43,554 bases of DNA. Origin: Gemmatimonadota bacterium. Its GTDB lineage: Bacteria; Gemmatimonadota; Gemmatimonadetes; Gemmatimonadales; GWC2-71-9. The position numbers and the translations under genes were made by a program. Shown here in pieces: positions 1 to 19,623 of the stretch. Each line of letters begins with the position of its first letter. Positions within the stretch are counted from its first letter, which is position 1. Under the pieces are notes generated by a model that searched no databases, was not told the origin of the DNA, and worked only from the letters and a program-made list of their open reading frames with translations. The stretch covers positions 19,702 to 63,255 of the forward strand of contig QHUY01000061.1 of the NCBI GenBank assembly GCA_003223415.1, read 5' to 3'.

Positions 1-1603
1 CGCTCATGCGCCCGCCCAGGTTCACCGGCTCGACCGCGGCGAGCAGCGTGCGCAGCGGGGCGAGGTCCACCCCTGGCGCGATGCGCTGCAACATCCGCTC
101 AGTGTGGGTCTCGGTCGAGATACCGAGCTCCTCGAGTCGCGCGGAGAGCACACGGAGCCGGCGGTACAGATCCGCCACGTCCGTGACGGTACGCGGCGAC
201 CACAGTCGCTCGGCGACTGCGGCGGCGCGCGGCCAGATGCGGGAGTCGATCGTTTCGGGGGTGACGATCTCGCCCCACATGCAGATCTCCCCGCCGAGGA
301 TGCGCTGCGCCTGCTCGGGCGTGAGCCCGGCGCTGTCCGGAAGCGGATCGACACCGTAGTGGTTCTCGGCCGGCGCCATGGCGTCGAGGTAGTAGCCCGC
401 CGATAGGATGCCCAGGAATCCCTGCCGCGCGCTTTCGCCGAGCGACTCCGGTCCGCGCCACGACTGCACGACCACGCTCTTGGGCAGGTCGGGGTGGAGG
501 ATCTCGTCCCAGCCCTCCATGCGTTTGCCGTGCCTGGCGAGAATTCGCTGGAGCCGCCGGTTGAAGTACGCTTGCAACGCCTCGTTGTCCTTCAGGCCAT
601 GGGCCCGCATGAAGGTTTGGATGCGCCGGTTGGCGTTCCACTGCTTGCCGTTCGCCTCGTCCCCCCCGATATGGAAGTAGGCGTCGGGGAACAGGGCCGC
701 CATTTCGCCAATGAAGCCGTCGATGAATGCATAGACCTCCTCGCGCGTGGGATCGAACACGGCATCGAGCACGCCGAAGGCGCGCTCGATCTGATAGGGC
801 CCGGGCGCGGCGGCGTACTGCGGGTAGCCCACGAACCAGCTGGTGGAGTGCGCCGGCATGTCGAACTCCGGCACGACGCGGATGCCGCGGTCGCGCGCGT
901 AGGCAGTCACTTCGCGGATCTGCGCCTGCGTGTAATACAGCCCGTCCGAGCCCAGCCCCTGGAGCCGCGGATAGCGGCGGCTCTCCACGCGGAAGCCCTG
1001 GTCCTCGCTGAGATGCCAATGCAGCACGTTGAGCTTCACGGTGGCCATGGCGTCGAGGGTGCGCTCGATCACCGCGACCGGCTCCCAGTGGCGGCACACG
1101 TCGATCAGCAGCCCGCGCCACCGAAACCGCGGATGGTCCTCGATCGTCACGGCCGGCAGATACGGCCCAGCGCTGTCGGCCGCGACGAGCTGGAGCAGCG
1201 TCTCGAGGCCGCGGATCACCCCCACGACCGTGGGAGCGTGGAGGTCCGCCCGCCCCTCGTTGACGGCGAGCATATACGACTCGTCTTCCGCTATTCCCTG
1301 CACAGCCATGCCGGGACCGTCGGCATGGACCACGAGCGTCGCCGTAGTGGAATCGGCCGCGGGGGGGCGGGAGAACGTCAGCCCCGTTCGGCCTTCGAGC
1401 CGCCGGAGCGTACGGTCCACGGCGCGCCGCAGGCGGGCGTCGGCGAAGCCGCGAACCGCCACCGTGAACGTGGTGTCGAGCGCGAGACGGCCGCTCCGCC
1501 ACTCGAGCGCGGCGGGTACGGGAATCAGAGTGCGGGTGGACTGTGCGCGCAGGGTAGACGCGCCGACGGCGGCCAGCACGAGGAGGAGACGGAAGTCACG
1601 CAT
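1..1603 (-). CDS. Beta-N-acetylhexosaminidase, GH20 (3' end cut by window)
   Basis: Secreted GH20 enzyme that removes terminal beta-linked GlcNAc/GalNAc from chitin or glycoprotein oligosaccharides. The ATG at 1603 gives MRDFRLLLVLAAVGAS, a signal peptide. An N-terminal GH20b-type domain follows, then the TIM barrel with HWHLSEDQGFR and the catalytic pair HIGGDEANG (Asp315-Glu316; substrate-assisted mechanism, Asp orients the 2-acetamido group and Glu is the acid/base). Late barrel motifs MWGE and WPRAAAVAERLW are present. 534 codons are visible, so only a C-terminal tail is missing. It lies 11 bp downstream of the EamA gene and closes a minus-strand run with a GH36-like enzyme, which fits exo-acting glycan scavenging. 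Family assignment is firm; exact substrate is not. Confidence 0.94.
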   Translation of the reverse strand, partial: MRDFRLLLVLAAVGASTLRAQSTRTLIPVPAALEWRSGRLALDTTFTVAVRGFADARLRRAVDRTLRRLEGRTGLTFSRPPAADSTTATLVVHADGPGMAVQGIAEDESYMLAVNEGRADLHAPTVVGVIRGLETLLQLVAADSAGPYLPAVTIEDHPRFRWRGLLIDVCRHWEPVAVIERTLDAMATVKLNVLHWHLSEDQGFRVESRRYPRLQGLGSDGLYYTQAQIREVTAYARDRGIRVVPEFDMPAHSTSWFVGYPQYAAAPGPYQIERAFGVLDAVFDPTREEVYAFIDGFIGEMAALFPDAYFHIGGDEANGKQWNANRRIQTFMRAHGLKDNEALQAYFNRRLQRILARHGKRMEGWDEILHPDLPKSVVVQSWRGPESLGESARQGFLGILSAGYYLDAMAPAENHYGVDPLPDSAGLTPEQAQRILGGEICMWGEIVTPETIDSRIWPRAAAVAERLWSPRTVTDVADLYRRLRVLSARLEELGISTETHTERMLQRIAPGVDLAPLRTLLAAVEPVNLGGRMS

Positions 1604-1614
1604 TTCGGAACACC

Positions 1615-2520
1615 TCAGCCGAACAGGGCGAGTATGAGTATGCCGAGGAACACCGCTAAGGCGCCAGCGAGCCGTCGCGGGCCAAAGGACTCCCCCAGCC
1701 ACAGCCAGCCGACCAGTGCCGCGAGGACGACGCTCACCTCGCGCACCGCGCCCGCGTAGGCGAGGCGTTCGATCTGATAGGCCCGCAGCACCAACGTGTA
1801 GCCGAGCATCATCAAGCCACCCGCCGCCACGATCCGGGGCCATTGCCGCAGGCCTTCGGCGAGCAGCATGGCGGGCCGGTATCGCCGCAGCGCCCGTGGG
1901 GCGAGCAACAGCCCGCTGAGACCGAGCACCGCCACCTGGTATGGCGCTGGCGCCGCGCGCCGCACGGCGATCCCGTCGATCAGTGAATACACCGACGTGC
2001 ACAGCGCCACGCCCAGCGCGGCGAGAATCCCGGGCCCTCGGCTGACCCCGGGGCGTCGGCCCGGGGTGAAAGGGCTTCTAGAGGAGTTCCGTTCACCCCG
2101 GGGCATCGCCCCGGGGTCAGCCGATGTGCCGATGACTACGAGTCCCAGCACGATTCCGGCGATCCCGGCGGCGCCCCTGGGCGATGGGTACTCCCGCAAC
2201 AGCAGCGCCGACCAGACCGCGAGCAGCACCGGCGCGGCTCCGCGGGCCATCGGGTAGACCTGTGAGAAGTCCGCCTGGCTGTAGGCGTACGCCAGCAGGA
2301 CATAATAGATCGCCTCCACGGCCGCGCTCACCACCGCCAGCCGCCACACCGAAGCGGGGAGCGGCTCCGCCGCGAGGAGCACGGGAATAAACAGCACGGA
2401 CCCCGCGACCAGCGCCCACCACGTGACGACGTCCCGGGCCGTCGCGCTCTTGAGCAGCAGGTTCCAGGCGACGTGCAGGCACGCCGCCGCGAGCAACAGG
2501 CCGAGCGCGAGCGCGTGCAA
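1615..2520 (-). CDS. EamA/DMT-family transporter with palindrome-encoded linker
   Basis: 301-residue inner-membrane protein of the drug/metabolite transporter superfamily with ten predicted helices in two EamA repeats (about residues 1-130 and 165-301). Motifs such as YPMARGAAPVLLAVWSALLL and the C-terminal VLAALVGWLWLGESF are typical. A TTG start directly follows the stop of the GH36-like gene, so the two are probably co-translated. The linker between the halves (residues about 133-161) is Arg/Pro/Ser-rich and encoded by an 87-bp inverted-repeat element at 2038-2124, whose length (29 codons) keeps frame. Substrate unknown; a sugar or amino-acid-like metabolite would fit the neighbours. Confidence 0.85.
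   Translation of the reverse strand: MHALALGLLLAAACLHVAWNLLLKSATARDVVTWWALVAGSVLFIPVLLAAEPLPASVWRLAVVSAAVEAIYYVLLAYAYSQADFSQVYPMARGAAPVLLAVWSALLLREYPSPRGAAGIAGIVLGLVVIGTSADPGAMPRGERNSSRSPFTPGRRPGVSRGPGILAALGVALCTSVYSLIDGIAVRRAAPAPYQVAVLGLSGLLLAPRALRRYRPAMLLAEGLRQWPRIVAAGGLMMLGYTLVLRAYQIERLAYAGAVREVSVVLAALVGWLWLGESFGPRRLAGALAVFLGILILALFG
2038..2124. repeat. Nested palindromic element inside the EamA gene
   Basis: Two 33-bp arms (2038-2070 and 2092-2124) are inverted copies differing at about four central positions, separated by a 21-bp centre. Each arm is itself a near palindrome built on CCCCGGGG ... CCCCGGGG, so the element is a pair of small hairpins in head-to-head orientation, like a REP pair (BIME). 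Its 87 bp are exactly 29 codons and it sits between the two EamA halves without breaking the frame. Confidence 0.85.
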
Positions 2521-4548
2521 TCAGGGCCGGACGTCGAGCGTCAGGACCTCGAACGGCCGCAGCGCGACCTGCTGCGGCTGGCCCGCGTGCAGATCGAGCA
2601 CCGGCGCGCCGCGATCGGCCTGCCAGGGGCTGCGCGCGTGGTAGTGCTGCTGCGCCCGTTCGGGCAGCTCGAATGCGCTCCCCACGTCGAGGGCGATGGA
2701 CTGCGGGGTGTCCTTGGGATTGCGGAGCACCAGAATGCCGCGGCCGCTCTTCCAGGAGGCGTGGCCGTAAACCTCGAGCTGCGCGGGGTCGCCTCCGATC
2801 CAATGCGTGTCCGCGAGCACAGCCGCGTTGCGCCGCGCCCAGCGCGCCGACTCGGCCAGCGTGTCCCAGTCGCCGCTCGAAAGCAGCGACGGCGTGACGT
2901 ACATCTCCTGGAGCTGCGTACCCGTGCCGAAGTAGGCGTGGATCTCGGAGGTAAAGTCGTGCTGCGGGTCCGTGTCGAGGCGGTTAGCGTGGCGGGCATA
3001 GATCAGCCCATGGAGCATGAGCGAGTTGAGCGGAAAGAGCGGCCCCTTCTTCACGATCCCCTGGTAGGTGTCGGCGTCGCGGTAGGTGATCCAGCGCTGC
3101 CGGTCCGAGCCGACGCCGGCGAAGTCGTGGTCTTCCCCGCCCCGCCAGATCGAGTCGGCGTACCGCAGGAAGAACGGCGAGGGATAGGTACCGGTCGTCA
3201 AGTTCACGAATACGTCCGGCTGCTCGGCGCGGAGCTCGCCGATCAGCGCGATCATGGCGTCGAAATCGCTGTCGAAGGCGCTGCCGGCGATCACGTGCGC
3301 CACGTTGCCCGTGCCGTCGAACTTGAACTGGTTCACCCCGTAGGTGCGGATCATGTCGAGGCACGTCTCGCGGAAGCGCTGGTAATACTTCGGCCCCGAA
3401 AGCGCGAATCCGCCCTCGTTCGTCTCGAAGCCCTGCGCGCGACCGCTGGCCAAGCGCTCCTGCCGCGGCTGGCCGTAGCCGCCCCAGGGCGACAGCCACA
3501 CGCCGATCCCCGCGCCACCCCGCCCCCCCCCGGAGCGGGCCGCCGCCTCGCGCAGCGGCGCGAAGCCGCGGGGGAAGCCGGCGTGGAAGTGCCACAGCGT
3601 CTGGGGATCGTCCCAGCCGTCGTCGAACAGGAACGAGTCGAGCGTCACGCCGCGCTTGGCGTGCAGCTCAGCGCCGAAGGCCTCAATGACCGCGAGCGCG
3701 GCGGCTTCGTCGTATTTGCTGAAGTACCCGATGTCGTACCACGAGTTGTAATGCAGGAACGGCCGGTACGGATGCGCCCGCTCACGCTCGACGTATTCGA
3801 GGAAGCTCCGGCGCAGCTGGTTTCCAAATGGCGCAGTCACCCCGATCACCGACGAGCAGGTGAGCGGCGCGCCGGGCCGGAGCGGCAGCTCGCGCACGAG
3901 GGCGCAACGCACCCGCGTTCCTGCGACGCTGCTATCGGCGAGCGGATGCTCGAGGCCGAGGAAGAGAGTGCCGGCCACGACGGGCGACCCACGCACGCTC
4001 CCCGAGACAACCGCGCCCGGCAGCTCGAGGTCGAGCATCCGAATTTCCTTGACGGGCACCTCCGCCTCGGCGCTCCTGATCGTGACCTCCTGACGGAGGT
4101 AGTGCGAGTCGTCGCGCAGAATGGCACGCCAGGTGGCGCGCAGGCGGCCCGCCGGGTCAGCGAGCTCGACGGTGATCTGCCGGCCGCCCTGCCGCTCGGC
4201 GAATCGGGCCGCGCTCGGAGTTCCGGTGAGCCGCTCGACTCGCGGCGCCCCCTGCACCCGAAAAGCGGCGCTGCCGAGCCCGGAGCCGTCTGGAAACGCG
4301 AGGGCGAACGCGTCGGGCGGGAGAGACAGCGTCCGGCCGGCGAGCTTGTCCACTACGCTGACCGCCCGGAGCGAGCCGTCCGTCACGGTCCAGGTGGCGG
4401 CGAGGGCGTCGTTGCCGAGCGACAGGTCGGCGCCATCGCGGCGGCTCCACGATTCACGGAGCAGGCCGGGAACGGCCATCCCGGCGCCGAGGGCGGTCGT
4501 GCGGCGGACGAACTCACGCCGGGTGAGGATGCGCACGGGGCAGGCCAC
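2521..4548 (-). CDS. GH36/GH27-like (clan GH-D) glycoside hydrolase, Tat-exported
   Basis: 675-residue enzyme with a Tat signal (TRREFVRRTTALGAGMAVPG) from a GTG start. An N-terminal beta-sandwich (about residues 40-280) precedes a TIM barrel with FLFDDGWDD, GVWLSPWGGYG and QFKFDGTGN. Asp411 in the KFD motif matches the clan GH-D nucleophile position. WRGGEDHDFAGVGSDRQRW contains the distal SD expected to supply the acid/base Asp. A C-terminal beta domain completes it. The closest known activities are alpha-galactosidase or alpha-N-acetylgalactosaminidase, but specificity is not decided by sequence. It abuts the EamA gene (no spacer) and lies 59 bp after the rhodanese gene. Confidence 0.82.
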   Translation of the reverse strand: MACPVRILTRREFVRRTTALGAGMAVPGLLRESWSRRDGADLSLGNDALAATWTVTDGSLRAVSVVDKLAGRTLSLPPDAFALAFPDGSGLGSAAFRVQGAPRVERLTGTPSAARFAERQGGRQITVELADPAGRLRATWRAILRDDSHYLRQEVTIRSAEAEVPVKEIRMLDLELPGAVVSGSVRGSPVVAGTLFLGLEHPLADSSVAGTRVRCALVRELPLRPGAPLTCSSVIGVTAPFGNQLRRSFLEYVERERAHPYRPFLHYNSWYDIGYFSKYDEAAALAVIEAFGAELHAKRGVTLDSFLFDDGWDDPQTLWHFHAGFPRGFAPLREAAARSGGGRGGAGIGVWLSPWGGYGQPRQERLASGRAQGFETNEGGFALSGPKYYQRFRETCLDMIRTYGVNQFKFDGTGNVAHVIAGSAFDSDFDAMIALIGELRAEQPDVFVNLTTGTYPSPFFLRYADSIWRGGEDHDFAGVGSDRQRWITYRDADTYQGIVKKGPLFPLNSLMLHGLIYARHANRLDTDPQHDFTSEIHAYFGTGTQLQEMYVTPSLLSSGDWDTLAESARWARRNAAVLADTHWIGGDPAQLEVYGHASWKSGRGILVLRNPKDTPQSIALDVGSAFELPERAQQHYHARSPWQADRGAPVLDLHAGQPQQVALRPFEVLTLDVRP

Positions 4549-18225: not shown

Positions 18226-19623
18226 ATGCAGGATCGCCGTGTTTTCCTCGCTTCGCTCGCCTCCGGCGTCGCCGCCGGCGCCATCGGCCCGCGCCGGCTC
18301 GCCGCCTTGGCGCCCCAGGAGCGCCCCCGCCCCTCCCCCGCGCAGCTCGCCTGGCAGCGGGACGAGCTGGCCATGTTCCTCCATTTCGGCGTGAACACGT
18401 TCACCGACCGCGAGTGGGGAGACGGCACCGAGGATCCGGCGATCTTCAACCCGGCGGGGCTCGACACCCGCCAGTGGGCGCGCGCCGCCCGTGCGGCCGG
18501 CTTCCGGGCCATGATCCTCACCGCCAAGCATCACGACGGGTTCTGCCTCTGGCCCAGCGCCGTCACGACCCACAGCGTGGCGCACAGTCTATGGCGCGGC
18601 GACCGGGGTGACGTCGTCCGCGAGTTCGTGGACGCCTGTCGCGCCGAGGGCCTGCGTCCCGGGCTCTATCTCTCCCCCTGGGACCGCAACGCCCCCGTGT
18701 ACGGCGACTCGCCGCGCTATAACGATTTCTACGTGGCGCAGCTCACCGAGCTGCTCACCCGGTACGGATCGATCGCCGAGGTCTGGTTCGACGGCGCCAA
18801 CGGCGAAGGGCCGAACGGCCGCCGGCAGGTCTACGACTGGCCGCGCTTCTTCGGCACCGTGCGCCGGTTGCAACCCGACGCGGTGATGTTCTCGGACGCC
18901 GGCCCCGACATCCGCTGGATCGGCAACGAGAACGGGGTCGCGGGCGACCCCAATTGGTCCACGGTGAATCCCGACACGGTCCCCTACCCCGGAGCCAGCG
19001 GCGATGCGATCGCCGCCATGCTGCAGCACGGCGACCCGCAGGGCACCGTGTGGCGCCCGGGGGAGACCGACGTGTCGATCCGCCCCAGCTGGTTCTATCA
19101 CGCCGCGGAGGACGAGCGGGTGAAGAGACTGGACCGCCTCACCGAGATCTATTTCGACTCCGTCGGCAGGAACTCGAAGCTGCTGCTCAATGTCCCGCCC
19201 ACCCGTGACGGCCTGCTGCACGCGACCGATGTGTCCCGGATCGCCGCGCTGCACGACCGGATAACGGCCCTATTCGCCGACGACGTTGCCGCCGGGAAGC
19301 ACCTCGCGTGGCAGGCGACAGGCCGCCGGACGGCGGTGTGGGAGCTGGACCTGGGCCGCGCGGTTCGTGTCGGCTGCGCCCGATTGGAGGAAGACATCGA
19401 GCAAGGACAGGCGATCGCCCGGTACACCTTGTACGCCAGGGATGGCCGGGGGGGGGGGATGGGGGGGGCGTGGCGCGTGCTCTCGCGCGGCCAAACCATC
19501 GGGTATTGCAAGCTCGACCGCTTCGAGCCGGCGACGGTGCGGCGCGTCAGGCTCGTGATCGAGGACGCGGTCACGCCGCCGCGGCCCGTGCGGATCCGGC
19601 TGTACGAAGGAAGTGGCCCGTGA
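18226..19623 (+). CDS. Alpha-L-fucosidase, GH29
   Basis: 465-residue retaining fucosidase with a twin-arginine-like signal (QDRRVFLASLASGVAAGAIG). The catalytic barrel has FGVNTFTDREWGDGTEDP, AKHHDGFCLWPS and IAEVWFDGANGEG, where Asp189 fits the nucleophile. A C-terminal beta-sandwich (after residue about 340) resembles a F5/8-type module. The domain between them contains a G11-AT-G8 tract (19448-19468) coding GRGGGMGG. It is followed by an overlapping amidohydrolase gene (GTGA). The enzyme would remove fucose from glycoprotein or algal glycans. Confidence 0.92.
   Translation: MQDRRVFLASLASGVAAGAIGPRRLAALAPQERPRPSPAQLAWQRDELAMFLHFGVNTFTDREWGDGTEDPAIFNPAGLDTRQWARAARAAGFRAMILTAKHHDGFCLWPSAVTTHSVAHSLWRGDRGDVVREFVDACRAEGLRPGLYLSPWDRNAPVYGDSPRYNDFYVAQLTELLTRYGSIAEVWFDGANGEGPNGRRQVYDWPRFFGTVRRLQPDAVMFSDAGPDIRWIGNENGVAGDPNWSTVNPDTVPYPGASGDAIAAMLQHGDPQGTVWRPGETDVSIRPSWFYHAAEDERVKRLDRLTEIYFDSVGRNSKLLLNVPPTRDGLLHATDVSRIAALHDRITALFADDVAAGKHLAWQATGRRTAVWELDLGRAVRVGCARLEEDIEQGQAIARYTLYARDGRGGGMGGAWRVLSRGQTIGYCKLDRFEPATVRRVRLVIEDAVTPPRPVRIRLYEGSGP
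19448..19468. repeat. G11-AT-G8 tract inside the GH29 gene
   Basis: Eleven G, then AT, then eight G within codons about 408-415 of the fucosidase. It is in frame as assembled. Such a tract is prone to slippage and to sequencing error. Confidence 0.85.

Follow-up and report, generated by a model that had tools for sequence, protein, structure and literature searches.

How a strongly palindromic repeat came to be translated within a transporter gene is the question raised by an 87-bp element at positions 2038-2124 of the window, i.e. the whole stretch of 43,554 nucleotides of a Gemmatimonadota genome analysed here. The element consists of two inverted 33-nt repeats separated by a 21-nt spacer. 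Its inverted arms (2031-2073 and 2089-2131) are 84% complementary with repeat cores at 2038-2070 and 2092-2124, and both arms are individually near-palindromic. Each repeat begins with a foot, CGGCTGA, that is followed by the hairpin CCCCGGGGC-NNN-GCCCCGGGG. The first copy (2038..2070, plus strand, hairpin CCCCGGGGCGTCGGCCCGGGG) and the second, inverted copy (2092..2124, minus strand) both have the foot outward. They match R1, a covariance model built from 15 copies of the same genome, at C265:21739-21771(+) (E=2.3e-8) and C265:21793-21825(-) (E=7.1e-10), respectively, the latter being the top match of the genome to this family model. The sequence of the spacer (2071..2091) is not common to other copies. 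An earlier note had described an 87-bp element with two inverted, near-palindromic 33-bp arms, and its coordinates proved right to the base by sequence and repeat search. On the plus strand, the 101-nt region has a folding energy of -86.3 kcal/mol against a mean of -49.8 for dinucleotide shuffles (z = -9.2), and on the coding strand one of -77 kcal/mol (z = -8.1). None of the shuffles of this region matched the native folding energy on either strand. A known RNA family was rejected as the identity of the element, the only matches being sub-threshold hairpins of the microRNA type.

The repeat is dispersed. BLASTN located additional copies on numerous contigs of the genome, and the covariance model places about 18-20 distinct sites in 3.5 Mb at E <= 0.003. 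The arm is therefore not unique in the genome, and the search proposed by the earlier note came out positive. Some of the low-scoring model matches are likely due to chance, for instance those in an amidase gene and in a formate-THF ligase gene. As in REP and REPIN families, the unit is a short palindrome whose foot is conserved and which occurs at dispersed sites; its copy number is modest and low for a REP family (tens per genome). The inverted doublet is a frequent unit: the window pair is joined by a second doublet of the same genome on contig C189 and by those of G014, the genome with the closest transposase. G014 has 43 matches to the repeat, and at least 10 of its sites are doublets whose starts lie 47-54 bp apart, like those of the window pair; they occur in both relative orientations. 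The canonical GTAG/GTGG foot is not found; the foot is CTGA here, and TTGA, TTAA or CCGA in relatives.

A candidate source of the element lies on the same scaffold. A Y1/HuH transposase gene encoding 127 aa (G000:C265:18858-19238, plus strand; PF01797, E=6.8e-18) is situated outside the window. Its end is about 464 bp to the left of window base 1, and the gene lies some 2.5 kb away from the element. It stands exactly between two inverted REPs (C265:18819-18851, minus strand, and 19244-19276, plus strand), the arrangement expected of a cognate REP transposase. A 64-N scaffold gap (G000:C265:19638-19701), directly left of window base 1 and adjoining a long poly-C run, separates the transposase from the window. 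The scaffold join is supported since a GH20 gene appears, by inspection, to continue across this gap. Three PF01797 matches were found in the genome, one alone being full-length and flanked by REPs, although the draft assembly may miss collapsed copies. The multiple near-identical transposase copies of an IS200/IS605 insertion sequence were thus not seen.

The enzyme itself nevertheless resembles the TnpA of that family. It carries the HuH motif HVH and the catalytic motif YVVSQ, i.e. Y---Q. It scores 62 bits with the NCBIfam IS200 model NF033573, above the cut-off of 55, and its best solved relatives are the TnpA proteins of ISDra2 and IS608 (PDB 2xm3, E=3e-9). With the REP_Tyr_transpos model NF047646 it reaches 43.3 bits, below the cut-off of 80. 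Y1 transposases have been sorted by motif into class 1 or IS200 (Y---Q), class 2 or classical RAYT (Y---NP) and class 3 (Y----Q) (PMC6006769). The identity of a classical RAYT is rejected by the Y---Q motif and the curated model scores, and the enzyme is to be classed, from its sequence, as IS200-type. The search for a RAYT gene suggested by the earlier note thus came out positive in that a Y1/HuH gene does lie between inverted copies 2.5 kb away, with the correction that it is of the IS200 type. Class 3 modules are REPtron-like, with a CnGA foot and a gene flanked by hairpins, and were described as intermediate between insertion sequences and REPtrons (PMC6006769). The present module shares the CnGA foot (CTGA; CCGA in relatives) and the gene-flanking hairpins and differs from them by its Y---Q motif. 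In sum, the system works like a REPtron, yet its enzyme is of the IS200 type.

The association of transposase and repeat is recurrent among the 102 genomes of the family that were surveyed. REP hairpins were present within 48 nt of the gene at 20 of the 21 loci whose transposase has at least 35% identity (own locus included), and on both sides of it at 16 of them. At nine transposase loci below 32% identity, no REP hairpin was found within 100 nt. The foot varies by clade (CTGA, TTGA/TTAA, CCGA, plus a group with a four-base loop), and stem positions show compensatory G-C/C-G swaps. REPs were detected in 17 of the 21 genomes with the transposase and in 10 of the 81 without it (Fisher p = 3e-9, an optimistic value because related genomes are not independent). 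The mean copy number was 7.6 in the former and 0.25 in the latter. Ten genomes thus have REPs while no transposase of this group was detected in them.

The window element is a REPIN-like doublet of two inverted 33-nt REPs tolerated in frame, and it can with high confidence be regarded as a non-autonomous relative of the REP/transposase module located 2.5 kb away. Mobilisation of the REPs by the neighbouring IS200-type transposase is what these sequence relationships point to. Most likely this HuH/Tyr enzyme, whose gene is framed by two inverted REPs of the same family, would have copied the pair or moved it in the form of single-stranded DNA. The pair would then have inserted into the linker that joins the two EamA repeats. 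The insertion would have survived through the lack of a stop in frame, a net length that keeps the frame and the tolerance of the TM5-TM6 linker for extra length, so that the EamA gene would stay open and gain about 29 residues rich in Arg, Pro, Ser and Gly. The suggestion that a REP-like mobile unit had inserted and been tolerated is supported by the dispersal of the repeat, the REP-flanked transposase and the homologues devoid of these residues.

The host gene codes for an EamA/DMT-type 10-TM transporter (1618..2520, minus strand, 301 codons, stop at 1615-1617; PF00892, E=2.2e-21). The element lies wholly within this ORF and spans exactly 29 codons in frame 0, i.e. residues 133-161 (SADPGAMPRGERNSSRSPFTPGRRPGVSR), rich in Arg, Pro, Ser and Gly. 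From the PF00892 domain match, the second EamA half begins at residue 163 and the element sits between both halves; the in-frame 29-residue translation between them, as initially described, is thus borne out. Retention of the frame is unremarkable in itself, given that four out of six reading frames across the element are free of stops. The linker had also been called cytosolic, a placement that is doubtful by analogy: in solved structures of 10-TM DMT proteins the halves are inverted and the termini cytosolic (PMC6508934), so that the TM5-6 loop comes to lie across the membrane from the cytosol. The mCST model does not include residues of this loop (PMC6508934). A sequence search of solved structures with the EamA protein gave nothing useful. 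A structure prediction made from two sequences reached a poor pLDDT of 42; it showed coil at 134-162 and was not relied on.

No empty site was found at E<=1e-30 in a genome of the same genus or family, and EamA homologues of the order and class, with identities from 64% to about 30%, were aligned instead. One full orthologue came from a scan of genome contigs. All aligned homologues are without the element-encoded residues 133-161, as the earlier note had anticipated for orthologues. The nearest two have 12-13 unrelated residues at the linker, so that the net length difference to the nearest orthologue (64%) is only 16-17 residues. The linker is shorter in one half-protein homologue and, in one genus belonging to a different family, equally long and unrelated. 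The site therefore tolerates length change, and neither its exact borders nor a clean gain of 87 bp can be taken as proven. An equally long unrelated linker had been named as an argument against insertion and does occur in some class-level homologues. Insertion is still the favoured explanation here because the repeat is multi-copy.

Whether the gene is still functional has to be considered along with its origin. The insertion may have inactivated the transporter or be doing so, the gene being an early pseudogene that is still in frame by chance. Translation or folding could suffer from the roughly 29 added residues and from the hairpin on the coding strand, at about -77 kcal/mol, and a recent loss would leave scant trace. 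This is unlikely in view of the intact frame and second half, a pN/pS of 0.40 to the nearest orthologue outside the linker, and the in-frame copies in MtaB, EngB and DNA ligase of the family, by which inserts are seen to be tolerated elsewhere. In G014, a doublet encodes residues 271-299 of the radical-SAM tRNA methylthiotransferase MtaB (L198, G014:C123, ORF 1298-2830, minus strand); these residues occupy precisely the interval that separates two blocks in the alignment with MiaB 7mjz. A REP in the EngB GTPase gene of the same genome (residues 96-106; L206, G014:C64, ORF 1578-2264, minus strand) falls within about 23 extra residues located between aligned blocks and absent from solved EngB structures. 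The EamA, MtaB and EngB copies are thus all in-frame insertions within ORFs. In the ATP-dependent DNA ligase of the genome under study (L086, G000:C180:19644), a REP whose own loop has an expanded G run is read in frame, and the protein exceeds the family model by about 15 residues. A retained transporter function and a neutral peptide would fit best with these data.

Further REP-like stretches in genes vary in their interpretation. A beta-lactamase-fold gene of the genome under study also has an in-frame REP in one loop (L005, G000:C148:27574), where three relatives (L132, L133, L136) carry other, possibly decayed REP-like inserts. The gene for formate-THF ligase holds a foot-plus-hairpin sequence (L023, G000:C114:72070) that was not counted as an insertion, there being no length gap against solved homologues. 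Similarly, REP-like DNA in the inter-domain linker of DprA is accompanied by no clear extra length compared with 3maj.

The REP-like palindrome in a DUF92 membrane-protein gene (L015, G000:C226:53335; orthologues L140, L144, L150) bears on another possibility, namely that the window element is kept for a function, either as an RNA hairpin regulating the operon or as a useful exposed basic peptide. This palindrome is found at one position in several genera and is absent or changed in others. A fresh insertion was rejected since the stretch is common to homologues, and the pattern in these sequences is that of an old or recurrent insertion. Codon conservation in the palindrome exceeds the average of the gene (0.73 vs 0.47), but 12 of 229 windows of the gene are equally conserved, and the difference is only suggestive; an earlier conservation count on hand-picked intact copies was biased. 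The variety of unrelated proteins hit argues against a single function, and the window copy was found in one genome alone in the data examined, so that a function of the window element is quite improbable. A native, fast-evolving Arg/Pro/Gly linker whose DNA, in a genome rich in GC, would look palindromic through chance alone is hardly credible. Linker length does vary among homologues, some linkers being equally long and unrelated, and GC-rich DNA folds easily, but this reading is refuted by a z of -9 against dinucleotide shuffles and by the recurrence of the 33-nt unit, its foot conserved, at about 18-20 sites and next to the transposase.

The tolerated REPIN-like doublet is a new case of a known phenomenon. 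Intragenic REPs, single and double, were described in many bacteria in 2013, dimers encoding 20-30 residues and many lying in DNA-repair and tRNA-modification genes (PMC3733652). In-frame REP insertions within transposase genes were reported in 2018 (PMC6006769). The Rickettsia palindromic elements (RPE), put forward as the precedent, do share palindromic repeats translated in frame in unrelated proteins, but intragenic REPs in many bacteria are a closer one (PMC3733652). RPE units carry a CGTC tag (PMC3733652) where CTGA is found here. With REP and REPIN families (PMC3733652, PMC3116915), the present one shares foot-tagged palindromes, inverted doublets, dispersal, a link to a Y1 transposase and intragenic copies. 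It differs from GTAG- and CGTC-tagged families by its foot (CTGA; TTGA/TTAA/CCGA in relatives) and by only tens of copies per genome. The Y---Q motif, the NCBIfam IS200 score above cut-off and the ISDra2 and IS608 TnpA matches recall IS200/IS605, in contrast to the single intact gene, the flanking inverted REP hairpins dispersed on their own and the lack of a multi-copy IS. Gemmatimonas goes unmentioned in the text of PMC3733652, PMC6006769 and PMC8266576, and a literature search for REPs in Gemmatimonadota, judged by titles and abstracts, found no REP report.

The unusual part is the system, with a CTGA foot rather than GTAG and an IS200-type enzyme rather than a classical RAYT. In Gemmatimonadota, a mobile hairpin element linked to an IS200-type enzyme supplies coding sequence to intact genes, and the system is consistent with the intermediate stage that has been proposed to link insertion sequences with domesticated REP transposases. 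Since the foot differs between the modules of relatives, enzyme-foot specificity is directly testable. More tentatively, Gemmatimonadota REP modules with IS200-type transposases might repeatedly extend housekeeping proteins by in-frame peptides encoded in hairpins (ADPG..PRG, TPGRRPGVS); some of these inserts, e.g. in DUF92, would persist long with the palindrome intact via selection or same-site re-insertion. At the REP sites L191/L225/L218, L199/L224 and L190/L212, two or three congeneric species have near-identical flanks, which suggests that some REP insertions are inherited across species.
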